Positions 14,201 to 39,738 of a DNA stretch of 46,093 nt are shown here, in pieces. The notes beneath the pieces were generated by a model. The model made no database searches and was not told the origin of the DNA. It saw nothing but the letters and a program-made list of their open reading frames with translations. The DNA is from Akkermansiaceae bacterium. GTDB lineage: Bacteria > Verrucomicrobiota > Verrucomicrobiia > Verrucomicrobiales > Akkermansiaceae. A program made the position numbers and the translations under genes. The DNA is taken from assembly GCA_026461385.1 (NCBI GenBank), contig JAPJNB010000197.1, positions 1 to 46,093 on the forward strand, written 5' to 3'. Numbering within the stretch: position 1 is the first letter of the stretch; every line of letters begins with the position of its first letter.

Positions 14201-14634
14201 TTTGGCGCCGCGAAATACCGGCGACCGCGCGAGCAGCGCATCATGGATTTTTCCCAAAATCCCCGCAGCGCTTTGGATGAATGCCTGTTCACACAGTTGC
14301 ACTCAGACGTTGATCGTCTCAATGTCGCGAGGTCCACTTCCAACCCAAATTGGTATACCCTTTTTCCCTGCCGAATCAATGCTGCGACGACGCGGGCGAC
14401 AACCTACGGATCCAGATCAATCGTGGTCAGCAAGAATCGTCCTTCTACCCACAGAAAGCGCTCGTTAGAATTCTGCGGAGTTCCAGCTTCCGGGGCCGGG
14501 AAGTTCACCGACCTCTGGAATGCTCGGCAACTCTCTAAAAATTCAACGTTGCTCTTTTAGCTCATGATTCCGGAAATCGTCTGCATTCAGGTATCATTCG
14601 ACTTGGCTCAATGCGCTCCGAATTCCGAATTTAA
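14201..14634. other. Intergenic region, no gene seen
   Basis: About 500 bases lie between DUF1501 and the KaiC operon. The track ORFs here (14202, 14243, 14350, 14564 plus-strand; 14119 minus-strand) overlap one another, show no domain pattern and have biased composition. I see no clear terminator hairpin with a T tract. It may contain a degraded gene, but I cannot name one. Confidence 0.45.
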
Positions 14635-14663
14635 TTGCATGGGGCCACGAATGGCGGTATGTG
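14635..14663 (+). promoter_or_regulatory. Candidate promoter for the KaiC operon
   Basis: TTGCAT (14635-14640) and TATGTG (14658-14663) are separated by 17 bases, about 42 bp before the ATG of the 144-residue gene. No strong Shine-Dalgarno follows. Confidence 0.3.
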
Positions 14664-14705
14664 TGATGCTACTTGTTTTCTCACCGCCCTCTATCCCCTC
14701 CCCCA

Positions 14706-15140
14706 ATGAACCTGGCGACTACCGATGTACGTCACCTTGCCGAGCGAATTCTCGCGTTCGAGAAGGCGATCATTGCCCCTAATGACCAGCCATCTTCCGC
14801 CTTTTTCATCTTCGAAAAAATCAGCCCGCATTTCATCACGATGATGGGAAGCTACGGGTACCAACAACTGCTCGAGCGGGCGCTGGTGCTGGCCAGCAAG
14901 GAGTTCCCATGGCTATCGAAAGCCAACATCAACAACGATGGACTGCTCGATGAAATGAGCGAAATCGATCTTAACATCACCCCTGAGGATTTTTCAGCAG
15001 GCAAGTTGGCACTCCTCACCCACCTGCTACGGCTGCTCAATGACATCATTGGCGAAGGGATGACTCTAAGGCTACTCAGGGACGTCTGGCCGGAGCTTGC
15101 GGACAAAACGATGAGCATAAACCAAGGTAAAACACCATGA
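14706..15140 (+). CDS. Uncharacterised 144-aa KaiC-operon protein
   Basis: I do not recognise a named family. From the ATG at 14706 the protein is soluble and predicted mostly helical: an N-terminal helix (VRHLAERILAFEKAI), a central helical segment (MGSYGYQQLLERALVLASKEFPWL), an acidic stretch (NNDGLLDEMSEIDLN) and a C-terminal helical pair (LALLTHLLRLLNDIIGEGMTLRLLRDVWPEL). It has no signal peptide, no thioredoxin-like KaiB pattern and no catalytic motif. The stop overlaps the KaiC start in an ATGA, so the two are translationally coupled and the protein is a good candidate KaiC partner or adaptor. From memory, similar short proteins lie next to KaiC-like or signalling genes in other bacteria, but I could not verify that here. 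The track start at 14673 adds only 11 low-complexity residues. Confidence 0.8.
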   Translation: MNLATTDVRHLAERILAFEKAIIAPNDQPSSAFFIFEKISPHFITMMGSYGYQQLLERALVLASKEFPWLSKANINNDGLLDEMSEIDLNITPEDFSAGKLALLTHLLRLLNDIIGEGMTLRLLRDVWPELADKTMSINQGKTP

Positions 15141-16708
15141 AACCAACACATCCAACCGGACCAACGTCTGCAAAAAACCCTCTCCCCCCAGAGGATTACC
15201 GACCGCATATCCGGAAAATATCATCGGGCGTTCGTGGCCTTGATGAAATCTTTGGAGGGGGCATTCCCGAGTACTCGTTCAATGTGATCGCAGGCACCCC
15301 AGGCTGTGGCAAGACCACCATGGCTCACCAAGTCGCATTCGCCAACGGAACGGAGGAAAAGCCAGCGCTCTATTTCACCGTGCTGGGTGAGCCTTCGATC
15401 AAAATGATCCGCTACCAACAGCAGTTCGGGTTTTTTGACATTCAGAAGATCGGGAAATCGGTCCGTTTCATCAATCTATCAGATTTTCTAATCAAACAAG
15501 GAATGCCCGCCGTCATCGATGAAATCTCAAAGCAGGTCAAGGCCGCTGACCCATCGATTGTCGTGGTGGACTCGTTCCGCTCGGTGGTTCGTACCCAATC
15601 CGGCAATGCTAGCGAGAAAGAAATGCAGCTTTTTGTTCAGCAACTCAGCCAATTTCTAACAGGTTGGCAGGCCACGACTTTTCTGGTCGGCGAATATGAC
15701 ATCACCGAGTTTCGTGACAATGCCCTGTTCACGGTCGCCGACGGAATCTTCTGGCTTTCTCAAGAAACCGAACGGAACTCGGTGGTCCGCAAACTTCAAG
15801 TCATCAAGATTCGTGGCCAGAAGTCGGTTCCTGGCCTACACACCATCCGCATCACCGACTTTGGCCTTGAAGCATTTTCACGCACCCTCGGCCTCGGCGA
15901 GAAAAAATCGACCGTGGTTGCCGGGAAACACCCACGCCGCCGAATCTCACTCGGCATCCCGGAGTTAGATACGATGCTCGATGGTGGGATTTTTGAAGGA
16001 GACAGCTTACTCGTGACCGGCCCATCGGGTTCCGGCAAATCGGCCTTAGCAACCCAATTCATCGCCGCGGGCATCCGCAATGGTGAACCAGGAATCATGG
16101 CGATCTTTGAAGAACGCCCCCAAGGTTACTCGGATCGCGCTCAAAGCTTCGGCCTCAATTTTGACCTGCCACAGGATCAAGAAAAACTGGAGATCCTCTA
16201 CCTCCGCCCCCTCGATCTCTCGGTCGACGAGACGATGCAAGCGATCCTCGAGGCCATCCAGAAAATTGGGGCCAAACGCCTCGTCATCGACTCTCTCGTC
16301 GGATTTGAGATGGCCTTGGCTCCCAGTTTCCGAGCCGATTTCCGCGAGTCACTCTATCGGATGATCGGAGCACTCACCGGAGCGGGCGTCACGATCCTGA
16401 GCACCGTCGAAGTCGAAGACACCTTCGGGTCGCTCCAATTGAGCCACTATGCGATTTCATTTCTAACCGACGACATCATTCGCTTGCGGTATGTCGAGAT
16501 CGACGGCCAACTCCGCAAGGTCCTCATTGTGATCAAGATGCGGGGTGGCAACCACAGCAAAGACATCCGCGAGTACATCATCACGGACAAAGGAATCGTG
16601 ATCATCGCACCACGCCGGACCGATTACATCGGCCTCACCTCAGGCCTTGCCCAGAAGAGCGGCCAGCGCCTTGAAATCGCTCCAGAACCGAAAATCCTCG
16701 GAGGATAG
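15137..16708 (+). CDS. kaiC: KaiC-like double-domain ATPase
   Basis: RecA-superfamily ATPase with two KaiC domains (523 residues), related to the cyanobacterial clock protein but probably a general signalling KaiC. Domain I (about 28-260) has Walker A AGTPGCGKTT (52-61), Walker B-like SIVVVDSF, and LGEP where cyanobacterial CI has the catalytic Glu-Glu. Domain II (about 265-510) has Walker A TGPSGSGKSA (about 294-303), an intact Glu-Glu pair in IFEERPQGYSDRAQSFG (E325-E326), Walker B RLVIDSLVGFEMA and KMRGGNHSKDIREYIITDKG. The CII phosphosite region reads AISFLTDD, so Ser431 is conserved (S441) and Thr432 is Phe. The start overlaps the previous gene by 4 bp. No kaiA or kaiB is present. The BLUF gene converges 52 bp downstream. 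Confidence 0.92.
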   Translation: MKPTHPTGPTSAKNPLPPEDYRPHIRKISSGVRGLDEIFGGGIPEYSFNVIAGTPGCGKTTMAHQVAFANGTEEKPALYFTVLGEPSIKMIRYQQQFGFFDIQKIGKSVRFINLSDFLIKQGMPAVIDEISKQVKAADPSIVVVDSFRSVVRTQSGNASEKEMQLFVQQLSQFLTGWQATTFLVGEYDITEFRDNALFTVADGIFWLSQETERNSVVRKLQVIKIRGQKSVPGLHTIRITDFGLEAFSRTLGLGEKKSTVVAGKHPRRRISLGIPELDTMLDGGIFEGDSLLVTGPSGSGKSALATQFIAAGIRNGEPGIMAIFEERPQGYSDRAQSFGLNFDLPQDQEKLEILYLRPLDLSVDETMQAILEAIQKIGAKRLVIDSLVGFEMALAPSFRADFRESLYRMIGALTGAGVTILSTVEVEDTFGSLQLSHYAISFLTDDIIRLRYVEIDGQLRKVLIVIKMRGGNHSKDIREYIITDKGIVIIAPRRTDYIGLTSGLAQKSGQRLEIAPEPKILGG

Positions 16709-16760
16709 TGCCCCCCAATCTCTCACTCTAACATCTGCCGCAAAGGAATCTGCCACAACG

Positions 16761-17198
16761 TTACAGCCCACACATCTCTGCAAGAAACGCCCGAACCTTT
16801 GAGGGGTATCGCTTCAATTCAATTTGGCTCAGCTCCATGTTGAAAATTTCCTCAAAGCCCTCAGGAGCCCCACTCGCATCCAAATCCAGATTGCGGAACG
16901 CCATGGACCACTTTGAAAACTCACGTTCTCGAATCGGCTCTTCAAACAAGGTGGTTACGGTGCGGTGGAGCTGATCTTTTTGAATCTTCGCGTAAAGCCT
17001 CCGAATCGCCGCTTCCTCGCCCTCGATCACTTGCAGGAAATAGCCGTCATGATAAAACAAAGCGCCCGTGATTCCTGCCGAGTGATTGAAGGCCCGGAAT
17101 TTTTCCAACAAAGCCACAAGTACGGCCGGTGACATTGGCGCAACGGCATGGCTGATATAGATGATATGGAACACTGGGGGAAAAGTGCGAAATACCAT
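16761..17198 (-). CDS. BLUF-domain blue-light sensor protein
   Basis: FAD-binding blue-light photoreceptor, 145 residues from the ATG at 17198. It is a single BLUF domain plus a short C-terminal extension with no output domain. The photoactive residues are all present with the same spacing as in AppA: Tyr14 (IIYISHA), Asn38 (FNHSAGITG), Gln56 (GYFLQVIEGEE), Trp97 and Met99 (FSKWSMAF). A stand-alone BLUF protein normally signals by protein-protein contact. It faces the KaiC-like gene with 52 bp between the stops, so a light input to the KaiC module is possible but unproven. The track start at 17339 adds 47 residues without family similarity. tRNA-Thr lies upstream on the same strand. Confidence 0.9.
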   Translation of the reverse strand: MVFRTFPPVFHIIYISHAVAPMSPAVLVALLEKFRAFNHSAGITGALFYHDGYFLQVIEGEEAAIRRLYAKIQKDQLHRTVTTLFEEPIREREFSKWSMAFRNLDLDASGAPEGFEEIFNMELSQIELKRYPSKVRAFLAEMCGL

Positions 17199-17385: not shown

Positions 17386-17460
17386 TGGAGCCGGCTGCGA
17401 GAGTCGAACTCGCGACCTACTGATTACAAATCAGTTGCTCTACCACTGAGCTAAGCCGGC
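17386..17460 (-). tRNA. tRNA-Thr (anticodon TGT)
   Basis: The minus strand folds as a complete cloverleaf of 75 nt including an encoded CCA. The acceptor GCCGGCT pairs with AGCCGGC, the D arm is GCTC-AGTGGTAGA-GC, the anticodon stem/loop is ACTGA-TTTGTAA-TCAGT giving anticodon TGT, and the T arm GCGAG-TTCGACT-CTCGC contains the invariant TTCGA. The discriminator is T, followed by CCA. The track ORF at 17255..17449 reads through it and is spurious. Confidence 0.97.
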
Positions 17461-22362: not shown

Positions 22363-23157
22363 CTAGTTCTTTGCGGTCGCTGCAGGTGCTGGCTTCGGGC
22401 TGTTCGCCTTGAGCGCGGCATCGGTTTGTGAACTAAACCAAGTTCCGAACTGATCCTTCGGCAAAACCTCCATCGACCCAACCATGTTCCCATGGCCTTC
22501 ACCACAAAGCTGCGCGCAAACTACAAAAGTCTCCAAGGTCTTCACCGGGGTGAACCACATCGGGATTTCACGGCCTGGAATCGCGTCCTGCTGGATCCGC
22601 ATCGGAACGATGCAATAGTTATGAATCACATCCTTGGTGCCAATGTTGAGAACCACCGGCTTATTTACAGGCAACTTGAGAATTGGGCTCGTGAAGTCAT
22701 CGAGCGCATTCGGGTCGGTGTAGTCGATGCCAAGCTCATTGGAACCCGAGATCAACGCTGGGTCATGGCGACCAAACTTGTTGTCGGCACCTGGGTAATG
22801 GTAAGTCCATCCGAACTGCCAACCCACCACACGGACACGCAATGGATTCAAGTTCTGAACCGCTTTCCAGCTATCAACCCGCTCGGCCCAGAGTGGAAAT
22901 GCAAACCCAAGAAGCAAAACTGCCTCGATGATGATCACGCCAACTTCCAAGTGGCTCGAAAGATGGCTCCTCACCCCCTCATAGGATGCTTTTGGATGAT
23001 TCTTATGCCAGAAGCGAAAAATACAGTAGAAGAAAAATAAAGTCCACCCCACGAACAGCGCGATCATGAACCAATGAACCACGTCAATCATGTGATCAAC
23101 CTGACCACCGTGTGCTGAGAAATTTTCAGGAATGCCTAGGAATTTTGAGGGACTCAT
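22363..23157 (-). CDS. coxB: Cytochrome c oxidase subunit II (CuA, no haem domain)
   Basis: Carries the CuA centre that takes electrons from cytochrome c. The 264 residues have two transmembrane helices (WFMIALFVGWTLFFFYCIFRF and GVIIIEAVLLLGFAFPLWA) and a periplasmic cupredoxin domain. CuA ligands are visible: His in KDVIHNYCIVPMRIQQDAIPGR, then CAQLCGEGHGNMVGSMEV with both Cys, Glu, His and Met. The VGWQFGWTYHYPGAD segment is the aromatic electron-entry region. There is no CXXCH, unlike true caa3 subunit II, so separate cytochromes must donate. It is the last gene of the operon, which is unusual since coxB normally precedes coxA. Confidence 0.95.
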   Translation of the reverse strand: MSPSKFLGIPENFSAHGGQVDHMIDVVHWFMIALFVGWTLFFFYCIFRFWHKNHPKASYEGVRSHLSSHLEVGVIIIEAVLLLGFAFPLWAERVDSWKAVQNLNPLRVRVVGWQFGWTYHYPGADNKFGRHDPALISGSNELGIDYTDPNALDDFTSPILKLPVNKPVVLNIGTKDVIHNYCIVPMRIQQDAIPGREIPMWFTPVKTLETFVVCAQLCGEGHGNMVGSMEVLPKDQFGTWFSSQTDAALKANSPKPAPAATAKN

Positions 23158-28482: not shown

Positions 28483-29190
28483 TCAACGGGCACCCTTGGC
28501 TTTCGGTGGCGCGAAATTGAGCACCGCAGGAACCACTTGGTCTTTCTTGAGCGATAATAGGTAGGATACGAGCGCGTTTGCTTCTGCGCAAGGCACCAAC
28601 TCTTCGCCAAGTTCCGCGCCGAAAGGCATAGCCTCGTCTGAGGGATTCCCCTTGATCTTGCGCTTCTCAAACAAGAACCGATGGGGTGGGCAAGTGGACT
28701 TCCAGCGATCCGCCTCAAGGCGAGGATTGTAAAGGTGACTGAGCAACCATTGCGACGCCTCAAGTGGGCTCGCATACTCGGACTCCACTCGGCGACCGAG
28801 GTTCGATAAATCAGGGCCCATGCGTGAAACCCCGACTTGCGCAAATTTCTCGCCGTAGAAGTCGTAGGCATTGGTCTCACGGCGAGTATCACCTCGGTCA
28901 GGATCCGCTTTCAAGCCACCCCAATCCGCGCGATAGAGGTCATTTCCCGCATAAGTGGGTCGCACGACCTGCGTGTGACAGAGATAGCAACCATTCTCAG
29001 CATAAACCTTCGCCCCGTCAGCGATACGCCCAGTGCGCTTCGGGAAAAAGATGCCAGTCGAACCATCATTCGCCTCCGAAAGCTGGATCGGCTCAAGGTT
29101 GCGCATCGTGATGAATGGCACGACGACGATCGCGAGCCAGGCGGCGCCAAAACTGGCGGATAAACCGAGGATGAATGTGCGGAAGCTCAT
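28483..29190 (-). CDS. ccoO: CcoO-like membrane cytochrome c
   Basis: Homologue of CcoO, the monohaem subunit of cbb3 oxidases, 235 residues. The N terminus has one transmembrane anchor (ILGLSASFGAAWLAIVVVPFIT). The haem site is ENGCYLCHTQVVRPTYAGNDLYRADWGG, which matches the CcoO pattern, followed by RRETNAYDFYGEKFAQVGVSRMGPDLSNLG. Where CcoO has the axial methionine (SNMPAYPWL) this protein reads STCPPHRFLFE, so the usual ligand seems replaced, perhaps by Cys or His. The C terminus EANALVSYLLSLKKD is typical. It is 38 bp downstream of the CcoN-like gene. Known CcoO passes electrons to CcoN; here the partner lacks an active site, so another acceptor is likely. Confidence 0.88.
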   Translation of the reverse strand: MSFRTFILGLSASFGAAWLAIVVVPFITMRNLEPIQLSEANDGSTGIFFPKRTGRIADGAKVYAENGCYLCHTQVVRPTYAGNDLYRADWGGLKADPDRGDTRRETNAYDFYGEKFAQVGVSRMGPDLSNLGRRVESEYASPLEASQWLLSHLYNPRLEADRWKSTCPPHRFLFEKRKIKGNPSDEAMPFGAELGEELVPCAEANALVSYLLSLKKDQVVPAVLNFAPPKAKGAR

Positions 29191-29228
29191 TAGGAAAATT
29201 GCTGAAATTCAAAATCTAACATTCCATA

Positions 29229-30734
29229 TCAATGTGCGGCAGCGTGACCTAGGCCAGCGTTGTCGATATCGCCCTCCTCACCGTGAGGACCGGGACCATG
29301 GTGAGCATCTGAAACCAACAGCGTCGGATGGAGACTGCGCCGTCCAAGACGCAGCCACATCAAAGCAAGGTGGATGAAGAAGAAAACATTGGAGAACAGG
29401 ATGAAGCACCATGCGATGGTGGTTGCAACGGCGTATGGGTAGGCCCGTGTGGCGGCCCCTTGCCAAGGCTGCTGCCATTCCTCTTGGCCGATCCCCTGCT
29501 GGAGCCCTCCGAAGAGAGCAACTGCGGCGACGGTGATGATTCCGTACACCGAAAACAAAAAGTGAATCTTGATCAGGCGACGGGAAAGCCACTCCCTGCC
29601 GGTGACTCGGGGCACAATGAAGTAAACCGCACCAAACATGACAAAACTGAAAAACCCGTAGATCGCAAGGATTTCAAACCCATAGCCAGAAAGCGAGAAC
29701 TGGGTGAGTGGCAGTGTCGACCCAGGAAGATTCAGCCAGACGGCTGCTAAGCCAAGAAGGACGAGGCCAGCAATGCCGGTGATCATGAAGCGAAGTGATG
29801 GACTGCTCGCGACGACTTCTGGAGAAGACAAGGTCGTGCGGAGAATGTTGATTGCCGCACAAACTGCTGGGACAAAAAACAGCACGGTGGCTGCAGCCCC
29901 CACATAGGGAAGGAAAAACGGGATGGGTACGCCCATTAACTTCTGCATTCCAGCCCAAGGGGCGATGATCGCAAGCGACCAAAATCCAAGTTTGGCAAGC
30001 GAGTAACTGAAGACCGGCCGCCCCGTCACCTTAGGAGCAAGATAATACGCGGCCGCCAAAGCGACTGGAGTAAAGAATAAGAAAATGAGTGCAGACCGAT
30101 ACCAAGCATTGATGCCTGCGGCCATGAGCGGATGACCAGGAATGCAATGAAGCAATGTGTTTGCAGTGACAAACACCCATGGGAACCAAACCATTGCGGC
30201 GAGAAGATACCACTGGGAAATGTAAACATGCCCCTCGGGCCGCACGCGAAACTGAATGAACGATCCGATGACGATGGCAGTGTACGCCACCAAAAACACG
30301 GGCCACACGAACGAAGGAAACTCCATCCAAGGCATCCCAGTGCCGTTGCCCGAGAGAATTCCGACAAGGCCAAGCGAGACACCAAGGTTCCAAATGTGCC
30401 CCGCAGTCAGGATGATACCAGCCGAGGTGCACTCTTTACGCGAAAGGCGCGCCATCAACCAAATGATCACCGCAAACGCCGCTTGAAAGCCCCAACCATA
30501 AATCAACGCGTTGATGTGGGAAGGAAATACCCGACCATAGTCAAGCCAAGCGCAGCCAGACATGAAGCTAGGGCTGTGCACCTTGGCCGATGCAATGATT
30601 CCCAAGACGATGGACACCGCGAGCCATGCGGCCCCGCTGGTCATAAAAAACATCACTGGGTGACGAAGCGAACGATCGATCCCCGCACGCAGCAAGGCGT
30701 CCTGATCACTGGAATTTTGGATGGCAGATGACAT
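29229..30734 (-). CDS. ccoN: Degenerate CcoN-like haem-copper oxidase subunit (no active site)
   Basis: Homologue of cbb3 oxidase subunit I, 501 residues from ATG 30734, about 12 helices. The fold is clearly CcoN: YGRVFPSHINALIYGWGFQ (helix II, His73 at the low-spin haem position), AYYLAPKVTGRPVFSYSLAKLGFWSL, AVYFIVPRVTGREWLSRRLIKIHFLFSVYGI. The active-site residues are missing, however. CcoN WYGHNAV is WYRSALI, WAGPHHLHY is WAGMQKLMG, and TIGHVHSG is LSGYGFEI, so all CuB histidines, the b3 ligand and the second low-spin haem ligand are gone. It cannot reduce oxygen in the normal way. Automatic annotation would call it a cbb3 oxidase. The track's TTG start at 30761 is less likely than the ATG. 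It lies between two cytochrome genes, directly before ccoO. Confidence 0.88.
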   Translation of the reverse strand: MSSAIQNSSDQDALLRAGIDRSLRHPVMFFMTSGAAWLAVSIVLGIIASAKVHSPSFMSGCAWLDYGRVFPSHINALIYGWGFQAAFAVIIWLMARLSRKECTSAGIILTAGHIWNLGVSLGLVGILSGNGTGMPWMEFPSFVWPVFLVAYTAIVIGSFIQFRVRPEGHVYISQWYLLAAMVWFPWVFVTANTLLHCIPGHPLMAAGINAWYRSALIFLFFTPVALAAAYYLAPKVTGRPVFSYSLAKLGFWSLAIIAPWAGMQKLMGVPIPFFLPYVGAAATVLFFVPAVCAAINILRTTLSSPEVVASSPSLRFMITGIAGLVLLGLAAVWLNLPGSTLPLTQFSLSGYGFEILAIYGFFSFVMFGAVYFIVPRVTGREWLSRRLIKIHFLFSVYGIITVAAVALFGGLQQGIGQEEWQQPWQGAATRAYPYAVATTIAWCFILFSNVFFFIHLALMWLRLGRRSLHPTLLVSDAHHGPGPHGEEGDIDNAGLGHAAAH

Positions 30735-30762
30735 CGGCTTGAAAGATGAAAGGAGAATCAAA

Positions 30763-31521
30763 TTAAGGATTTACGAGTTCCTCGGTGGGAAGTTGTGGCT
30801 TTCCGACTTCGCTGCGAAGCGCAGCCACTTGGGCAGCCGTCACTGCGGAGGCCTTATTTCCGAAGCTGTTGCGAACGTAAGTCAGAACCCCGGCGATTTG
30901 CTCGTCCGTCTGGTAGCTGAGTGCCGCCATCCCAACCACAAAGTTGTAGTCCTTGCCGGCGACCTTAAGCGGTCCCTTGAGACCACGCAGCTGGATGCGA
31001 ATGAGATTGGACACAGGTCCCTTCACCCACTCAGAACCCGCGAGCGGCGGCGCGATCGGCCCACCCTCACCGTTTTGACCGTGGCACGCACTGCAAACCA
31101 AAAAGGAAGCCTTGCCTGAAGCCATCACCGCAGGATCGATCGGCGCATCAGCACTCGCAGTGGCGGCATCGACCGCCTTGGTATCCACCGCTGGAGCGGC
31201 TGCAAGTTTCTTAGCCGTATCCGACCCAGGAACGACTTGGGCTGGGACGCTCACGGCAACTGGCTTTGAATCCGCGAGATGCTTGGCCACTGTCACAGCA
31301 GCCGCTTCGATCGACTCGGGAGAAAGATTCGCAGCCTGAGCAGCATCGATCTTGGCCTTGGTCGCGTAGCGCGGCTTAGCAGCAGCATCCTCCAGCGAGG
31401 CGGGCTCAGGACGGACAAAAAGCCAGATCGCCGCAAGCAATGCAGCAAAGATGAGGAAGGTGCCAATGCCCCACCAAAATGTGGTGAAACGGATCAGCGG
31501 ATTATCGCGGGATGGGTCCAT
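30763..31521 (-). CDS. Membrane-anchored monohaem cytochrome c
   Basis: A 252-residue c-type cytochrome: a transmembrane anchor near the N terminus (FTTFWWGIGTFLIFAALLAAIWLFV), a long Ala/Lys/Asp-rich linker (about residues 40-125) and one haem domain with FLVCSACHGQNGEGGPIAPPLAGSEW. Candidate Met ligand is in VVGMAALSYQTD. The ending AGVLTYVRNSFGNKASAVTAAQVAALR parallels the other monohaem cytochrome of the operon, suggesting duplication. The flexible linker would let the haem domain swing between ActE/ActA and an acceptor. It is 17 bp downstream of actF and 28 bp upstream of the CcoN-like gene. Confidence 0.88.
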   Translation of the reverse strand: MDPSRDNPLIRFTTFWWGIGTFLIFAALLAAIWLFVRPEPASLEDAAAKPRYATKAKIDAAQAANLSPESIEAAAVTVAKHLADSKPVAVSVPAQVVPGSDTAKKLAAAPAVDTKAVDAATASADAPIDPAVMASGKASFLVCSACHGQNGEGGPIAPPLAGSEWVKGPVSNLIRIQLRGLKGPLKVAGKDYNFVVGMAALSYQTDEQIAGVLTYVRNSFGNKASAVTAAQVAALRSEVGKPQLPTEELVNP

Positions 31522-31538
31522 GGGAAGAGAAGATAAAA

Positions 31539-32849
31539 TCAGTTAGAAACGTTCGCGGATTCCAGGATGCGCGGATCGCGGTTCGGATAGAGTGAATGCT
31601 GACCAAGCGCACGCAGCAGGAAGAAAATGAACGCCGCACCGATCGTCACAAAGGCGAGGATGTCGCCCCAAAACGCACCTGGGATCGACACTTGGATATC
31701 GCCGAACACCTCAGGCTTGATGTTACCCAACGAAACGCCGCGCTCAGGAATGGTGATCAAGTAGTGGTCGAGCGCGTGCATGCACAACGTGTAAACGGCG
31801 ACGATCGAAAGCAATTTCGGATTCTTCTTCAGCCAAGCTTGCAAAAGAACCACGAAGGGCACCACGAAATGGCCGAACACGAGGAAATACATCGCCACGT
31901 TCCAATTGCCGGTGTTGCGAATGGCAAAGTAGGAAGTTTCCTCCGTAATGTTTGCATACCAGATGAGGAAAAACTGCGAGAATGCGATATAGGCCCAGAA
32001 CGTCGTGAACGCGAACATTAGCTTACCCATGATGTGGAAATGCTCCGGTCCGGTGACATGCTTCAGGTGGCCCTGACTCTTCAACCAAGTGCAGACGAGC
32101 ACGATGACCGCCATCGAGTTGAGTGCGGTGCCTGCGAATAGATACACACCCCACATGGTCGAGAACCAGCGGTAGTCTAGGCCCATCAAGAAGTCGAATC
32201 CAGTGAACGTAATCGTCAACGCGAAAATGATGAGCGTGTAGGTCGAATGAAAACGTGCCTTCAACAACCGGCTCGTTCCCGGATTCGGATCGGTGTCTTG
32301 GGCGGTCGAAAGTTTGCGGAGCCCATAGATTACGGCGCTGAGACCAAGCGCATAAAATGCCACCCGGCCATACCAAAACGGCTGATTCATGAACCAATAC
32401 TTATTGTAGAGAAGATGGTCGTGGTGGTGAAGATACTCCTTTACGGCACCGGGTGCCTTGTTGTGGGTGTTCATCCACTCATAGAGGTAAACTTGCACTT
32501 TTGGAAATAGCAGCGGCGTGCCGAACAAGAACACCCAAGGGAACGTCGACCCCAAGTTTTCAAACGTGCGACGCACCGAAGTTCCCCACCCCGAGTTCGA
32601 CACATTGTGGAGCAAGGTCCAGAACACCCCACCGATCGAGAGAGTGAGGAAATAATAAAAAGCGAACAGCCAAGAATAAGCGAAGGGCCCGCGAAGTTTC
32701 TCCGGCGCGAAGAACAAGAGATAAATGCTGGCTGCGGTGCCGAGAACCGCAAGGGTCAAAGCGACGCTCTTCAACTTCGAGGTCTTCGAAGCATCCAGAT
32801 GGTCGCCGTGGATCGCGATGTCGGCGGAGGTGACGTGGTGATGGGCCAT
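31539..32849 (-). CDS. actF: Alternative complex III membrane subunit ActF
   Basis: Quinol:cytochrome c oxidoreductase quinone-binding subunit of alternative complex III, an NrfD/PsrC-related protein of 436 residues with about 10 helices. An N-terminal His-rich stretch (MAHHHVTSADIAIHGDHLD) precedes the helices. Recognisable segments are FYYFLTLSIGGVFWTLLHNVSNSGWGTSVRRTFENLG, SRLLKARFHSTYTLIIFALTITFTGFDFLMGLDYRWFSTMWGVYLFAG and FGHFVVPFVVLLQAWLKKNP. ActF pairs with ActC in the membrane; whether it binds quinone itself is less clear than for ActC. It is 21 bp downstream of actE. Confidence 0.93.
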   Translation of the reverse strand: MAHHHVTSADIAIHGDHLDASKTSKLKSVALTLAVLGTAASIYLLFFAPEKLRGPFAYSWLFAFYYFLTLSIGGVFWTLLHNVSNSGWGTSVRRTFENLGSTFPWVFLFGTPLLFPKVQVYLYEWMNTHNKAPGAVKEYLHHHDHLLYNKYWFMNQPFWYGRVAFYALGLSAVIYGLRKLSTAQDTDPNPGTSRLLKARFHSTYTLIIFALTITFTGFDFLMGLDYRWFSTMWGVYLFAGTALNSMAVIVLVCTWLKSQGHLKHVTGPEHFHIMGKLMFAFTTFWAYIAFSQFFLIWYANITEETSYFAIRNTGNWNVAMYFLVFGHFVVPFVVLLQAWLKKNPKLLSIVAVYTLCMHALDHYLITIPERGVSLGNIKPEVFGDIQVSIPGAFWGDILAFVTIGAAFIFFLLRALGQHSLYPNRDPRILESANVSN

Positions 32850-32870
32850 TTCGATGGATTCAGGAAAAAG

Positions 32871-33521
32871 TTATTTAGCCTTGGCTTGAGCCTCTTTGGC
32901 GGTTTGCAAGGTGCGGACGTAGGCGATGATCGCCCAGCGGTCGTTGACCGGAATGTTGTAGCCGTATGCACCCATCATGCCCTTGCCGAGCGTGATGGTT
33001 TCAAAAATCCGACCGTCGGGATAGGAAGCAGGCTTGAAGGCATCCAAGTGGAAGTTCGCAATTCCGGGAACCCCATACTGCCCCGTCACCCCCTGACCGT
33101 CGCCCGATTTGCCGTGGCACACTGCGCAATAGATCCCAAAGCGTTCCTTGCCACGTTGGATCAGGGCACTCGCGCTTTCCTCGTTCAGCTTAAGCTCTTC
33201 TGGCATGCCAGAGCCGAAATAATCTCCCACGTGACCGGTGTAATAGTAGCCGGTTTGGCCGCCAAATTCGTACTCAGGAATTCCGCCAATCGACTTGGCA
33301 CCCGAATCATTGAATCCACGCGGTTGGGTTTCAGCGACGGGTCGGCGTGAGCCATGACCATCTGCGAAAAAGGGATCGGGCTTCTGCGCACGCAACTTGT
33401 CCTGCTCGTCCATGTCCGGGAAGATCCGAATCGGAGGCTTGGAAAACTTCTGGCCGCGGAACCCAAAAAGGCCAACGACTAGCAACGCAATCAGCGCGTA
33501 AGTGAGAAAAAAGTAACGCAT
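32871..33521 (-). CDS. actE: Alternative complex III monohaem cytochrome ActE
   Basis: Periplasmic monohaem cytochrome c of alternative complex III, 216 residues. The N-terminal anchor is MRYFFLTYALIALLVVGLFGF. The mature domain has IRIFPDMDEQDKLRAQKPDPFFADG, a signature of ActE, and one haem site GIYCAVCHGKSGDGQGVTGQYG. The Met ligand is likely in LGKGMMGAYGYNI, followed by DRWAIIAYVRTLQ. It takes electrons from ActA and passes them to an oxidase or soluble carrier. A set of four 7-base direct repeats lies in the spacer in front of it. Confidence 0.93.
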   Translation of the reverse strand: MRYFFLTYALIALLVVGLFGFRGQKFSKPPIRIFPDMDEQDKLRAQKPDPFFADGHGSRRPVAETQPRGFNDSGAKSIGGIPEYEFGGQTGYYYTGHVGDYFGSGMPEELKLNEESASALIQRGKERFGIYCAVCHGKSGDGQGVTGQYGVPGIANFHLDAFKPASYPDGRIFETITLGKGMMGAYGYNIPVNDRWAIIAYVRTLQTAKEAQAKAK

Positions 33522-33530
33522 CTAAAGTGT

Positions 33531-33558
33531 GGAATTTAAGATTTACGATTTGAGATTT
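33531..33558 (-). repeat. Four 7-base direct repeats before actE
   Basis: On the minus strand the spacer between actD and actE reads AAATCTC, AAATCGT, AAATCTT, AAATTCC in tandem (28 bp). The first four bases AAAT are constant. It ends 10 bp before the actE ATG, so it may affect translation initiation or be simple A/T-rich drift. Confidence 0.4.
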
Positions 33559-33564
33559 CCCCGA

Positions 33565-34119
33565 TCAGTCCTCCTCCTCGACCAGCTCGATGTTTGACCC
33601 ACCAACCTCGGCGAGCAAGTCATGCGTCCCTGTCGGACTGAACATTGGATCACGAGCCTCGATGGCGATGAAAAAACCGTCATCTGTTGCGCGGCTGAAC
33701 TGGTCGCTTGCAAACAACGGGTGGTTAAGGCGTGGCAACTGGATCAAGGCGAGAAGGCCAAACAAGACGGTGAAGCCTGAGAACAAAATCGTCAGCTCGA
33801 ACATGATTGGGAAAAAGGCAGGAACGGTGAAGATGTTCGCGGGCTTTGCCTGAACAATCGTCGGGTAAATGACCACCTGTGTGCTGTAGGCAAGCGTGAA
33901 GGCGGTCGCGGTGCCGGTCATCCCCCCGAAGAAAACGAACCAAGGCAGGATCGAGCGCTTCATGCCCATCGCCCCGTCCAAGCCGTGGATCGGATAGGGA
34001 GAATAGCAATCCCACTTCTTGAAGCCGGCGTCGCGGATTTTCTCCGCACCCTTGTAGAGAGCGGATGCGCTCTTGAACTCGGCTAGGTAGCCATAAACGC
34101 GTTTGCGGGTGGTGCTCAC
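33565..34119 (-). CDS. actD: Alternative complex III membrane subunit ActD (DUF3341)
   Basis: Small membrane subunit of alternative complex III without redox cofactors, 184 residues, DUF3341. It starts with GTG (MSTTRKRVYGYLAEFKSASALYKGAEKIRDAGFKKWDCYSPYPIHGLDGAMGMKRS), a very recognisable N-terminal cytoplasmic domain. Two helices follow (ILPWFVFFGGMTGTATAFTLAY and FFPIMFELTILFSGFTVLFGLLALIQL). The acidic C terminus (GGSNIELVEEED) is typical. It lies between actC and actE in the usual order. Confidence 0.93.
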   Translation of the reverse strand: MSTTRKRVYGYLAEFKSASALYKGAEKIRDAGFKKWDCYSPYPIHGLDGAMGMKRSILPWFVFFGGMTGTATAFTLAYSTQVVIYPTIVQAKPANIFTVPAFFPIMFELTILFSGFTVLFGLLALIQLPRLNHPLFASDQFSRATDDGFFIAIEARDPMFSPTGTHDLLAEVGGSNIELVEEED

Positions 34120-34149
34120 GGTGAAAAGTTGAAGGTGATTCGTTAGAAG

Positions 34150-35625
34150 TTATTTAGAGGAAACGAGCTCTTTTTGATAAGCAGCCTCGGTGACCACGCC
34201 ATGGTCAGGATGATCTTGGATATCGTCGAAGTGCGGATCGGACTCAAGCAAGGTCCACTTCACTTCTGCAATGTTGATGCAAGGCAAGAAGCGCAAAAAC
34301 ATAAGGAAAAGCGCCAGGAACAAGCCGATGGTACCCACGAAGGTCATCAACTCAACCCCACTGGGGGAATAAGTTTTCCAATCCCCCGGCAGCCACATGC
34401 GGGCCAAAGTGGTGCAAATGATCACAAAGCGCTCGAACCACATCCCGACGTTCACACACATCGCGACGATCATGATCACCCAAAGGTTTTCGCGGCACGC
34501 CTTGAACCAAAACACCTGTGGCGAAAGCACGTTGCAGCTCATCATCGCGGCGTAGGCCCACCAGTATGGACCAGCGATCCGGAACTTAAACGCATCCATT
34601 TCATAGATAGCACCCGAGTAGAACGCGACGAACAACTCCATCAAGTAGGCATAACCCACGATAGTTCCGGTCAGTAGAATGATCTTCGCCATGTTGTCGA
34701 TGTGCTTCATGGTGATCACATCCTGAAGTCCGTAGATGAAGCGGGCAGGAACCATGATCGTGAGCACCATCGCAAATCCACCGAAAATGGCACCGGCGAC
34801 GAAGTAGGGTGGGAAGATGGTCGTGTGCCAGCCCGGCACCACCGAGGTTGCAAAGTCGAACGAAACCACTGAGTGAACCGAGAGCACGAGCGGAGTGGAA
34901 AGAGCGGCGAGCAACAGATAGGCCATTTCGTAGTGACTCCACTGGCGATTGCCCCCACGCCAGCCGAGCGAGAAGATCCCATAGAGCACCTTGCGGATGC
35001 CTGGCTTGCAGCGGTCGCGGATGGTGGCAAGGTCAGGAACCATGCCGAGGTACCAGAAAATCAACGAGATGGTGAAATAAGTGGAAACCGCGAACACGTC
35101 CCAGAGGAGTGGTGACTTGAAGTTTTGCCAGATGGCATTCGCATTCGGAACGGGAGCGAGGAACCAAGCGAACCAAACCCGACCGACGTGGAAGGCAGGG
35201 AAAATTCCAGCGCAAATCACCGCAAAAATCGTCATGGCCTCCGCCGCACGATTGATCGAGGTCCGCCAATTTTGGCGAGTCAGGAACAACACCGCAGAAA
35301 TCAGTGTACCTGCGTGTCCGATCCCGATCCAGAACACGAAGTTCGTGATATCAAATCCCCAGAAAACTCGGTTTGACATCCCCCACACCCCCACACCCGT
35401 TGAGACCAGATAAGTGAGTCCACCGCCCACCCCGATCATCGCGATCAATGCGGAAGGAATGAACAGCAACCACCAGAGGAAGGGTTGACGGTTTTCAAGA
35501 ACGCCACAGATGCGCTCGGTGATCCAGTGATACGAACGACCGCTGAGGATGAGCTTTTCGCGCTCAAGCACCGGTAACTTGACCCCAGTGTGGGTCTCAG
35601 GTGCGGTTTGGGTGGTGGAAGCCAT
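34150..35625 (-). CDS. actC: Alternative complex III quinol-binding subunit ActC
   Basis: NrfD/PsrC-like membrane subunit that binds menaquinol, 491 residues with about 10 helices. Recognisable segments are [98 protein letters not shown] and [27 protein letters not shown]. The His/Asp residues near the periplasmic side are the quinol site in known structures. It follows actB by 35 bp and, with ActB, forms the electron-wire entry point. Confidence 0.94.
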
Positions 35626-35660
35626 GGTTAGATGAAATTAAAAGCTCAGATTGAAATGGA

Positions 35661-38600
35661 TCAGACCATGTGAACGGTCGCCTTGCCGACGAACTTCGCG
35701 TCGGGCATTTTCGGATTCGGATTCTTAACACGCGCCAGATAGCTGGTGCGTGGGCGGGTGCCGATGTAGTTGAGTAGGTCGTAATTCCGCTCAATTTTCT
35801 TGCTGCGAACCAAGACGGATTTTTCTTCGTCGAGCAGATTGCCGAAGGTGATGGCTCCAGCAGGGCAAGCGTCTTGGCATGCGGTCTTCACCGAATCCAC
35901 CGGGATCCGGAGGGTGTGGAGATCGACTTTCATCTCGGTCGATGGCTTGCCAGCCACGAGCGCCTCTTGCTTTTGGCCGCGCTTCTGACGGATTACCGCA
36001 TCCTTGAGACGCTGCACGCAATAGGTACACTTTTCCATCACACCGCGCATGCGGACCGTGACGTTCGGGTTCTTCTGAAGGTGAGGTGCTTCGCCGGTTT
36101 GCTTCTCACCAAATGGTCCCTTGTAGAGGTTGTGAGAAATGAGCGGGTTGCGCTTGTTGTAATCGAAATAGTTGAATCGACGCGCCTTGTATGGGCAGTT
36201 GTTCGCACAATAGCGGGTTCCGATGCAACGGTTGTAGGCCATCGCATTGAGGCCGTCCTCCGTATGGATCGTCGCATTGACTGGGCAAACGGTTTCACAG
36301 GGGGCGGACTCGCACTGCACGCAAGCCACTGGTTGCGGGACCATCTCCGGATTGTCTTCGTCGAAGGTGTTGTCCTTCTGTGCCGCAAAATAACGATCCA
36401 TCCGGATCCAGTGCATTTCACGACCCATCCCAACCTGCTTTTTGCCGACGATTGGAATGTTGTTTTCCGATTGGCAAGCGACGAGGCAGGAATTGCAACC
36501 CATGCAGGAAGAAAGGTCGATCGACATTCCCCACTGATGCAGCGGGTCATTGATGAGCGGCTGGTCCTTGCGGTTGTTGGGCTTGTAGAGCGAAAGATTT
36601 GGCGGAGCGTGAGCGTCGTTGCCCTGCTTGGGCACATTGGCCAACTGAGCGGCGAACGATCCCTTTTCCTCGTCCACCATCGTGGAAACCTCACGAGCGA
36701 GTGCGCGACCATACATCGCGTGGTGCTCTTGCGTCAGCGAGACCGAGTAGCGTTTGCCCGTGGGCTTCGCGGTAGCACCCGTGGCAAAATACGAAGTGGC
36801 GGTGGTGCGCAACGGATAGGCATCAAACCCGCGGTTGACGCCGACAAGGCCAACATGGCACTCGTTTTTCGGTCCACGCTTCAACTCATCGTGCTCGTCG
36901 AATCCTTGACCGTAGCCGAGCGGGATCACGAGAGTATTTTCTGCTTGGCCGAAGGAAACCAACACCGGAATCTCAAGGGATTTCCCGTTCACCGTGACCA
37001 GAATCATCGGCGAGGTGCGGTTCTGCGCCTCATCGTCGGGCGAGCGAGAACCAAAAGGGGTTTCAAGCGCGATGATCTGATCGTAAACCCCAAGCTCCTT
37101 GGCGGTCTTCGGTGCGACGAGAGCAACGTTGTCCCATGTCAATTTGGAAACCGGATCCGGTGCCTCTTGCAACCAACCGTTGTCGATCCAGCGACCGTCG
37201 AAAATAGACGAATCCGTCGCAAAAATAACCTCGAGCGAAGTTTTGGTTGGGGCCGTGGCCACCAGCGGTGCAGAGGTATCCTCCCGAACGGCTGGGGTCA
37301 CGGATGCGTATGAAGCGCCGGCAAAGAACCCATCGCGGAGCAATTGCTTCCAAGCGGTTTCACCCTCGCCGCCAAATCCAGTGAACGTCTTCCGCACGGC
37401 AGTGTATGCAGGTGACGCAGCACCTTTTGCGCCCTCGCCGCTGAGCAGCTTGCCGTCGAGCGAAAGCAAGGCCAAGAGAAGCTCCAACTCCGACACGCAA
37501 TCGGGATAGAGCGGAAGGATCATCGGCTGCACCATCGTGTAGGTGCCACGCGCGCTTCGGGCATCACCCCATGACTCCAAGTAATGCGCGGCTGGGACGT
37601 GCCAGGTGGCCGCATGAGCCGTTGCATCAGTCCGCATTCCCAAATGAATACTGGTCTTCAGCTTGGCAAAGGATTCCGCAAATTTCAAATCTGCGGGTGC
37701 GTCGTGGAGCGGGTTCGAAGGAGTCATCACGACCAGCGTTTCAACCGCACCGGCATCGATGTCTGCCTTCAGGCTGGCAATGGAGCCGAGGCCTTTGGTC
37801 TCGGTTTGGAGTGCAACGAGTGGCTTGCCTTCGCCGATGTTGCCGAGCGCCACGTTGATCGCGTGAGCGAGCAAATGCACCGAGAGCGACTGACGCGAGC
37901 CCGCAAGCACCAATGACTTACCCGCATGCTCCTTGAGATCCTCGACAAGACCTGCAACCCAAGCGACTTGCTTCGCATCGGAGAGTTCCGGAGAAACGAT
38001 CGCCACCCCGGCCTTAACGCCAAGCCCGCGGGCAACCTGCGCCGCCACGGCATTCACTTGGCTCGGCGCAACCCGCAAACGGTGATCGGCCATGCCACCG
38101 GTAAGGGTGAACGCCGCTTCCACCGCATAGAGGCGGTTCATCTTCTTCGCGTCTGGCTTTTCCGAGTAAAATTTGCCTTCAGGCTTGCGGCGATCGAAGA
38201 ACGAGGTGACCGGCCCTTGGGAATCGGTCCCTGCGAAATCACAGTCCAACGAAAGAATCCGGTCTGCCTTCGCATAGTTGGCGACCAGTTTCACCCCGTC
38301 GCCCAGCGCCGTCGCAGCCGCATCACCCGTGAGAGCCTCGTATTGATAAAACTTCGCAGCAGAAAACTTTACCGCCAATTCTTTGGTGAGCCGTACCCGG
38401 GTCGGGCTGTCATCCGCACCGAACAAGAAGCCGATTTTTGCAGCCGGATCGGCAGCCAGCGAAGCGATGACCGCTTCAAAATCGCCGCGTTTCGCGACCT
38501 GAGCCTTCTTGAGGATCTTGCGCGAGCGCGACGGCGAGTAAAGATCCAAGACCGAAGCTTGGGCGAATGCATCCGTACCCTCGGCATCTGGATGCAGCTT

Positions 38601-38993
38601 ATTTGGCGCCAGCTTGGTTGGGCGACCCTCGAAGGTGGTCACCACCAGTGGCGTCGCCCCATGGGCCCGCGGCATGGATGACGCGTAGTAGGTTGCATTT
38701 CCGGGGATCACCCACTCCGGCGCCTTGGTGTAAGGGACAATATACCCCTCTGGGCGGCGACAGGCAGCCATGCCAAAACCCGCCAACGCCGGCGAGGCCC
38801 CCATCAATTTCAAAAAAGAGCGCCGGGAGTTCTCAGACTCCTCTCCATTCGCCAACTCCGCAGCACCCTGCGGGAACTCACGATCCAGCCACTGACGGAA
38901 TTCTGCCGTGTCCTCAAGTTGACCCGCACTGCGCCAAGCGACGGTGGTTTCGCCGGCGGGAACTTCGGGGTGGTGCCAAATACGCTTGCTCAT
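35661..38993 (-). CDS. actB: Alternative complex III iron-sulfur protein ActB (fused)
   Basis: Large peripheral subunit, 1110 residues, a fusion of a molybdopterin-oxidoreductase-like domain (cofactor-free) and a ferredoxin-like domain with the Fe-S wire. The N-terminal region has NSRRSFLKLMGASPALAGFG, a twin-arginine motif, so it is exported by Tat. The first domain (about 90-780) lacks molybdenum-site cysteines, as is usual for ActB. The C-terminal domain has CMGCNSCLVACQSENN, CVQCESAPCETVCPVNA, RCIGTRYCANNCPYKARRF and CTYCVQRL/CQDACPAGAITF. The third motif has Thr in place of one Cys, the known [3Fe-4S] position, and the others hold [4Fe-4S] clusters. Electrons from quinol in ActC pass along these to ActA. 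Confidence 0.95.
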   Translation of the reverse strand: MSKRIWHHPEVPAGETTVAWRSAGQLEDTAEFRQWLDREFPQGAAELANGEESENSRRSFLKLMGASPALAGFGMAACRRPEGYIVPYTKAPEWVIPGNATYYASSMPRAHGATPLVVTTFEGRPTKLAPNKLHPDAEGTDAFAQASVLDLYSPSRSRKILKKAQVAKRGDFEAVIASLAADPAAKIGFLFGADDSPTRVRLTKELAVKFSAAKFYQYEALTGDAAATALGDGVKLVANYAKADRILSLDCDFAGTDSQGPVTSFFDRRKPEGKFYSEKPDAKKMNRLYAVEAAFTLTGGMADHRLRVAPSQVNAVAAQVARGLGVKAGVAIVSPELSDAKQVAWVAGLVEDLKEHAGKSLVLAGSRQSLSVHLLAHAINVALGNIGEGKPLVALQTETKGLGSIASLKADIDAGAVETLVVMTPSNPLHDAPADLKFAESFAKLKTSIHLGMRTDATAHAATWHVPAAHYLESWGDARSARGTYTMVQPMILPLYPDCVSELELLLALLSLDGKLLSGEGAKGAASPAYTAVRKTFTGFGGEGETAWKQLLRDGFFAGASYASVTPAVREDTSAPLVATAPTKTSLEVIFATDSSIFDGRWIDNGWLQEAPDPVSKLTWDNVALVAPKTAKELGVYDQIIALETPFGSRSPDDEAQNRTSPMILVTVNGKSLEIPVLVSFGQAENTLVIPLGYGQGFDEHDELKRGPKNECHVGLVGVNRGFDAYPLRTTATSYFATGATAKPTGKRYSVSLTQEHHAMYGRALAREVSTMVDEEKGSFAAQLANVPKQGNDAHAPPNLSLYKPNNRKDQPLINDPLHQWGMSIDLSSCMGCNSCLVACQSENNIPIVGKKQVGMGREMHWIRMDRYFAAQKDNTFDEDNPEMVPQPVACVQCESAPCETVCPVNATIHTEDGLNAMAYNRCIGTRYCANNCPYKARRFNYFDYNKRNPLISHNLYKGPFGEKQTGEAPHLQKNPNVTVRMRGVMEKCTYCVQRLKDAVIRQKRGQKQEALVAGKPSTEMKVDLHTLRIPVDSVKTACQDACPAGAITFGNLLDEEKSVLVRSKKIERNYDLLNYIGTRPRTSYLARVKNPNPKMPDAKFVGKATVHMV

Positions 38994-39039
38994 GTTAAAC
39001 TGCGGAAAATTTGAGAATTGGGAAAATCGGGATGGAAGA

Positions 39040-39738
39040 TCAATGGTGACAGGTGGCGCAAGTGACCTTGGGCTTCACCATGAACTGCTCTTTCAGCTTC
39101 AGGCCGAGATCCTGGGTGGTCTTAACTGATGCATCCTTGGTGTATTTCGACACATCGCTGTCGCTGTAGGCAAAGTTGTAAACCTCCTCTAGCGGGCGAA
39201 GATTTTTCTCCGGTGCACGGTGACACTCAAGACACCAGCCCATCGAGTGCGGCTCTGCTTGGTAAACCACTTCCATCTTGTTCACGTTGCCGTGGCAGCT
39301 CTGGCAGGAAATCCCCCGGTTCACGTGCGCCGAGTGGTTGAAGTAAACGTAGTCAGGAGCCTTGTGGACCCGGACCCATTCGATCGGCTTTCCATCGTAA
39401 CCCGGATAATTCACATCCATCGACCGGTGAAGAGGTGCCAGCTTCGGGCTGTCACGCTGAACGTGCTGGTGGCAATTCCAGCAAGTGCTGCCCGTCGGCA
39501 CATTCGAGTGCCCCGCCACATCCACAAACGAGTGGCAATACCGACAATCCAAACCGAGCTGATCGACATGAATCTTGTGAGAAAATGGAATCGGCTGCGA
39601 CGGTTGATAGCCCACCACCAGCGTCTTGGGAGTCGCGTAATACGCAAAGGCGAGCGCCACACCCGCACCTGCGGTCCCAGCGCAGAATGCGATCTTGAAT
39701 GGTAGGAAGTTGGACCAGCGTGGAAAGATATTTGCCAT
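39040..39738 (-). CDS. actA: Alternative complex III pentahaem cytochrome ActA
   Basis: Multihaem cytochrome c that anchors and links the complex, 232 residues. One N-terminal helix (FLPFKIAFCAGTAGAGVALAFAYYAT) is followed by PIPFSHKIHVDQLGLDCRYCHSFVDVAGHSNVP. Five CXXCH sites are visible: CRYCH, CWNCH, CQSCH, CLECH and CATCH, the last at the very end of the protein. This matches the pentahaem ActA. It starts the operon, with actB 46 bp downstream. A CRP/FNR-like palindrome lies 34 bp upstream of its ATG. Confidence 0.96.
   Translation of the reverse strand: MANIFPRWSNFLPFKIAFCAGTAGAGVALAFAYYATPKTLVVGYQPSQPIPFSHKIHVDQLGLDCRYCHSFVDVAGHSNVPTGSTCWNCHQHVQRDSPKLAPLHRSMDVNYPGYDGKPIEWVRVHKAPDYVYFNHSAHVNRGISCQSCHGNVNKMEVVYQAEPHSMGWCLECHRAPEKNLRPLEEVYNFAYSDSDVSKYTKDASVKTTQDLGLKLKEQFMVKPKVTCATCHH

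Follow-up and report, generated by a model that had tools for sequence, protein, structure and literature searches.

Homologues of KaiC are widespread outside cyanobacteria, but for most of them neither partner nor input is known. In a 46,093-nucleotide stretch of DNA from an Akkermansiaceae bacterium with a 3.8 Mb genome (hereafter the window), a kaiC-like gene stands between the gene of a small protein, P0001, and that of a BLUF-type light sensor. This raises the question of whether either neighbour works together with KaiC, and whether the three proteins could form a timer or a switch that responds to light.

Organization of the locus and features of KaiC

The features of the locus are compiled in Table 1. 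In agreement with the original prediction, the stop codon of the P0001 gene overlaps the start of kaiC in an ATGA at 15137-15140, the BLUF gene runs towards kaiC across a gap of 52 bp, and a scan of 20 further proteins of the window found neither KaiA, KaiB nor a histidine kinase. The identical 4-base overlap is present in the sister species G463, in the related genome G430 and in two annotated Caballeronia loci. Because of its convergent orientation, the BLUF gene lies outside the P0001-kaiC operon. The candidate promoter of this operon is kept in the window, in G463 (TATAAG) and in a further relative, G437 (TATATA), amid otherwise diverged upstream DNA. It is absent from the list of a generic promoter scan, which gave a count at or below chance level for the window; a terminator scan returned 7 sites, with 3.7 +/- 2.0 expected. 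Selection on each of the three genes is purifying (dN/dS 0.08-0.33), with values of about 0.1 for kaiC, 0.13-0.33 for the BLUF gene and 0.25-0.32 for the P0001 gene.

Table 1. Coordinates of the P0001-kaiC-BLUF unit and its borders in the window
Feature	Position	Strand	Basis
P0001, 144 aa, predicted helical	14706..15140	+	ORF, ATG at 14706; no Pfam/NCBIfam match
KaiC-like double-domain ATPase, 523 aa	15137..16708	+	Pfam PF06745 1.3e-74; alignments to solved KaiC
Short BLUF blue-light sensor, 145 aa	16761..17198	-	Pfam PF04940 1.3e-29; AppA alignment
Candidate P0001-kaiC promoter: TTGCAT, 17 nt, TATGTG	14635..14663	+	Inferred from conservation
tRNA-Thr (TGT), bordering the three-gene unit, beside RsmB	17386..17460	-	

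With two tandem PF06745 stretches the ATPase belongs to the KaiC family, and it shares the KaiC fold, the two RecA-like domains and the FEE motif of CII (at 324) with KaiC of the cyanobacterial KaiABC clock. Walker A motifs are found at residue 53 (GTPGCGKT, CI) and at residue 295 (GPSGSGKS, CII), so that CII retains both its Walker A and its FEE motif. Assembly into a hexamer is expected. In contrast to the cyanobacterial system, which includes KaiA and KaiB, the catalytic glutamate pair of CI (E77/E78) is gone and aligned with L and G, in FTVLGEP at 80. This type of CI loss is conserved in the KaiC subfamily, with two Caballeronia sequences not matched by the pattern used. The phosphosite region (SHYAISFLTD at 436) also differs from the cyanobacterial one and presents the triad S/S/F, in which the serine at the S431 position is kept and T432 is replaced by Phe (Tyr in G430). 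Against the circadian KaiC equivalog TIGR02655 the protein scored 162.6 bits, below the cut-off of 546.25.

Of the timer or switch named in the original prediction, the timer is not supported, as the S/S/F triad and the loss of both CI glutamates speak against it. According to the Ramlibacter tataouinensis genome paper (PMC3164672), KaiC proteins unable to phosphorylate two residues are judged unlikely to sustain a cyclic timer; the SF and SY types of phosphosite listed there resemble the present case in that the sites are only partly kept. However, a single Ser431 site can suffice in the cyanobacterial protein, as stated in a review of work from the Kondo group cited in PMC11832031, and hence the phosphosites alone leave a timer possible. 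Our inference is a switch that depends on nucleotide and not a clock; a timer appears unlikely.

P0001 is a constant neighbour of this KaiC subfamily

P0001 belongs to no family in Pfam or NCBIfam, and six aligned homologues likewise gave no Pfam match. A structure model built from an input of two sequences is all-alpha, at low confidence (mean pLDDT 65). A Foldseek search with this low-confidence model found no significant match; VIA-align gave a best Z of 5.5, to a pyrin domain, a value that is not meaningful for a helical bundle. The C-terminal domain of KaiA was not listed among the structural matches of the model. The fold of KaiB is thioredoxin-like. The proposal that P0001 replaces KaiB is not supported, in view of the predicted, if low-confidence, all-helical structure and of the presence of P0001 at loci where a histidine kinase follows KaiC. 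Considered as a KaiB candidate itself, P0001 was rejected, as it matched no family and its relatives stand beside kinases.

The tight coupling of P0001 and KaiC claimed from the overlapping genes is borne out by their identical distribution over genomes. Homologues of P0001 occur in 4 of the 188 genomes of the class, and this KaiC clade is found in the same four. Within the genus, KaiC is encoded in 6/73 genomes, each time with P0001 just upstream (6/6). A P0001 search of genome contigs returned the sister species only, and scans of viral contigs gave no match. Outside Verrucomicrobiota the survey covered plasmids, where the KaiC proteins of more than 45% identity were one from Paracoccus (59%) and three copies from Caballeronia (47-49%), with no others; a P0001-type gene of 138-144 aa precedes every one of them. 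The third Caballeronia kaiC (L016 5552-7355, plasmid NZ_CP049319.1) is unannotated and was matched in two pieces next to an intact P0001 gene; this kaiC copy may be broken.

P0001-KaiC is hence a conserved module. As the copies of class, genus and plasmids all carry P0001 upstream, P0001 is a constant neighbour of this KaiC subfamily in Verrucomicrobiota, Alpha- and Betaproteobacteria. Judged by this gene order and co-occurrence, P0001 is probably also the partner of KaiC, and its presence with kinase-coupled KaiC proteins suggests a general partner of the subfamily rather than a peculiarity of the window. It thereby provides a concrete partner to test for one KaiC subfamily across these three groups.

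The Polaromonas plasmid NZ_MG869620.1 encodes a distant homologue of P0001 at 22470-22859 (L008/L080; 97.5% probability in hhalign). No KaiC is annotated nearby; CheB and histidine kinases surround the gene, and a BLUF gene lies about 5 kb away. Judging by this homologue, proteins of the P0001 family may also have a role in two-component systems outside the KaiC context.

Absence of the adjacent kinase, and a BLUF protein in the same clade

For relatives with an intact, readable locus, the gene after kaiC was compared. A histidine kinase follows directly in G172, G081, G093, G425 and G424, the last being partial as the contig ends there. The following gene encodes an HWE kinase in Paracoccus; its counterpart in Caballeronia encodes a protein that combines GGDEF with a histidine kinase. 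No kinase of the relatives' type follows kaiC in the window, G463, G437 and G430. These four form one clade in the KaiC tree (support 100/99), and the same four-member clade is recovered in the P0001 tree (96/94). The histidine kinase encoded after kaiC is likely the output in most relatives. Apart from those of Caballeronia, the kaiC-linked kinases have in common a helical linker motif that approximates MNEALLISGLRQHEL and may be a helix on which P0001 or KaiC docks; it was seen in the kinases of loci L013, L011, L012, L072, L069 and L007. Histidine kinases are present elsewhere in the genome of the window; of the kinase loci retrieved from this genome, none has the linker motif. In G093 and G081 (L012, L013), a glycosyltransferase-like and a glycosidase-like gene form a conserved pair beside the P0001-kaiC-kinase locus and could be its output.

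The second and third KaiC groups of the kaiC-histidine kinase loci described in PMC3164672 resemble the present loci in having a double-domain KaiC without KaiA or KaiB and, for most relatives of the window, an adjacent signalling kinase. They differ in that here a small helical protein precedes every kaiC, and in that the clade of the window is devoid of the kinase and has the BLUF gene adjacent in three members; in the window itself kaiC is met by the convergent BLUF gene, with no kinase directly after it. The accessible part of that paper names no small helical KaiC partner and describes no physical link between KaiC and BLUF.

With 102.6 bits against PF04940 (cut-off 25) the light sensor is a member of the BLUF family. 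Its residues 14-105 align without gaps to AppA 21-112, which confirms the predicted AppA-like spacing: Y14, N38, Q56, W97 and M99 fall on Y21, N45, Q63, W104 and M106, and all flavin-site residues are present. Like the short BLUF proteins PixD/Slr1694, Tll0078 and BlrB, it consists of the BLUF domain and a C-terminal extension. As an enzymatic output domain is missing, it would be expected to signal by contact with another protein, in the manner of PixD, whose known partner is the response regulator-like PixE. Unlike for PixD, no PixE was seen at the window locus, and the tail KVRxFLxEMCxL is particular to the BLUF subfamily of the window.

BLUF genes are present in 10/73 genomes of the genus. 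The proteins of G463, G437 and G430 are 92%, 82% and 58% identical to that of the window and have the conserved tail in common with it, whereas the other BLUF proteins of the genus that were compared reach 31-38%. Within the genus, the BLUF subfamily of the window is hence confined to exactly the four KaiC genomes without an adjacent kinase. The gene is adjacent to and convergent with kaiC in three of them (the window, G463 and G437); in G430 the two genes are on separate contigs, both with other neighbours. The absence of BLUF near kaiC in all relatives, named in the original prediction as evidence against a link, thus applies outside these three closely related species and not within them. 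Between the window (16764-17174) and G463 (L002, 2894-3304) the dS of the BLUF gene is 0.11, less than half the 0.26-0.28 of kaiC and P0001, perhaps as a result of recombination.

Light input and alternative explanations

Our leading reading, to which we give slightly less than an even chance, is a KaiC signalling ATPase with P0001 as its obligate helical partner, in which the kinase output was lost in one clade and blue light may now enter through BLUF. P0001 and KaiC would be translated as a coupled pair. Binding and hydrolysis of ATP in CII would switch the conformation of KaiC, and P0001 would bind KaiC and transmit or gate its state. The short PixD-like BLUF protein would pass its blue-light state into the module via direct protein contact, the KaiC-P0001 complex being the obvious candidate target. 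The binding of P0001 to KaiC, the direction of signalling, the light input and the output target are all parts that we infer for this scheme.

The most serious alternative accepts P0001 and KaiC as a functional pair and regards BLUF as unrelated to them, a gene picked up by chance next to a labile tRNA/IS region and retained in a few sisters; we consider this quite possible, at somewhat below an even chance. No other relative has BLUF beside kaiC, and the same observations that weaken the light input fit this alternative well, namely the convergent genes and the unlinked BLUF and kaiC of G430. Kinase absence with BLUF presence, a single evolutionary event, also weakens the case for light input. 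The co-occurrence of KaiC and BLUF in the genus, with a raw p = 0.0025, rises to p = 0.06 without the sisters G463 and G437, no longer significant, and to p = 0.27 with the whole window trio removed. As the value depends on the sister copies in this way, it is not used as proof. Transposase-like DNA flanks the sites: the upstream flank of the unit in G463 (L002) is a transposase-like gene, and the tRNA-Thr (TGT)/RsmB border is a possible integration hot spot.

A chance neighbour is less easily reconciled with G437, where the DNA homology to the window spans 14617-17180 and no further. There, the P0001-kaiC-BLUF unit is located near an unknown gene, tpiA and pgk on its upstream side, and RsmB-tRNA-Thr is on another contig, running into unrelated DNA (tRNA at L097 899-973). 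The block thus occupies a different chromosomal site with changed flanks, and the three genes stayed together through the rearrangement. Moreover, the clade with this BLUF is exactly the clade without the adjacent kinase, and the sole other genome with the BLUF subfamily, G430, is one of the 3 other KaiC genomes among 70 (chance 3/70, ~0.04). In the RsmB tree, which is based on one marker gene with a partial G430 copy, G430 groups with G400 (88/88). As G400 (89% complete) has neither KaiC nor BLUF, the two appear to be patchy together. In view of the block kept in G437 and the restriction of the subfamily, within the genus, to kinase-less KaiC genomes, chance alone probably does not account for the association of BLUF with P0001-KaiC in the lineage of the window, and light control of the KaiC module is plausible, resting on this one lineage.

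A stricter form of the leading reading is a kinase-free, BLUF-gated KaiC switch, in which blue light would alter the contact of BLUF with P0001-KaiC and so set the ATPase state, replacing the kinase coupling; we regard this form as unlikely. In either form, the kinase-less, BLUF-bearing clade could show how KaiC receives environmental input without KaiA and KaiB.

Alternatively, P0001 may primarily be a partner or adaptor of signalling kinases that is bound to KaiC here only within a larger assembly. The Polaromonas homologue amid histidine kinases and CheB fits this explanation, but four genomes keep P0001 under purifying selection without an adjacent kinase and with KaiC always present, which makes it very improbable. 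The weakest explanation, a true hourglass timer entrained by BLUF with P0001 in the place of KaiB, can draw on the KaiC homology, the serine at the 431 position and the adjacent light sensor gene, but is hardly credible given the Phe (Tyr in G430) at T432, the change of the CI glutamates to L-G, the helical prediction for P0001 as opposed to the thioredoxin-like KaiB, and the occurrence of P0001 with kinase-coupled KaiC proteins.

Elsewhere in the window, a respiratory gene cluster at 28483-39738 encodes ActD of alternative complex III, a COX1-type oxidase subunit, a FixO-like protein and multihaem cytochromes.
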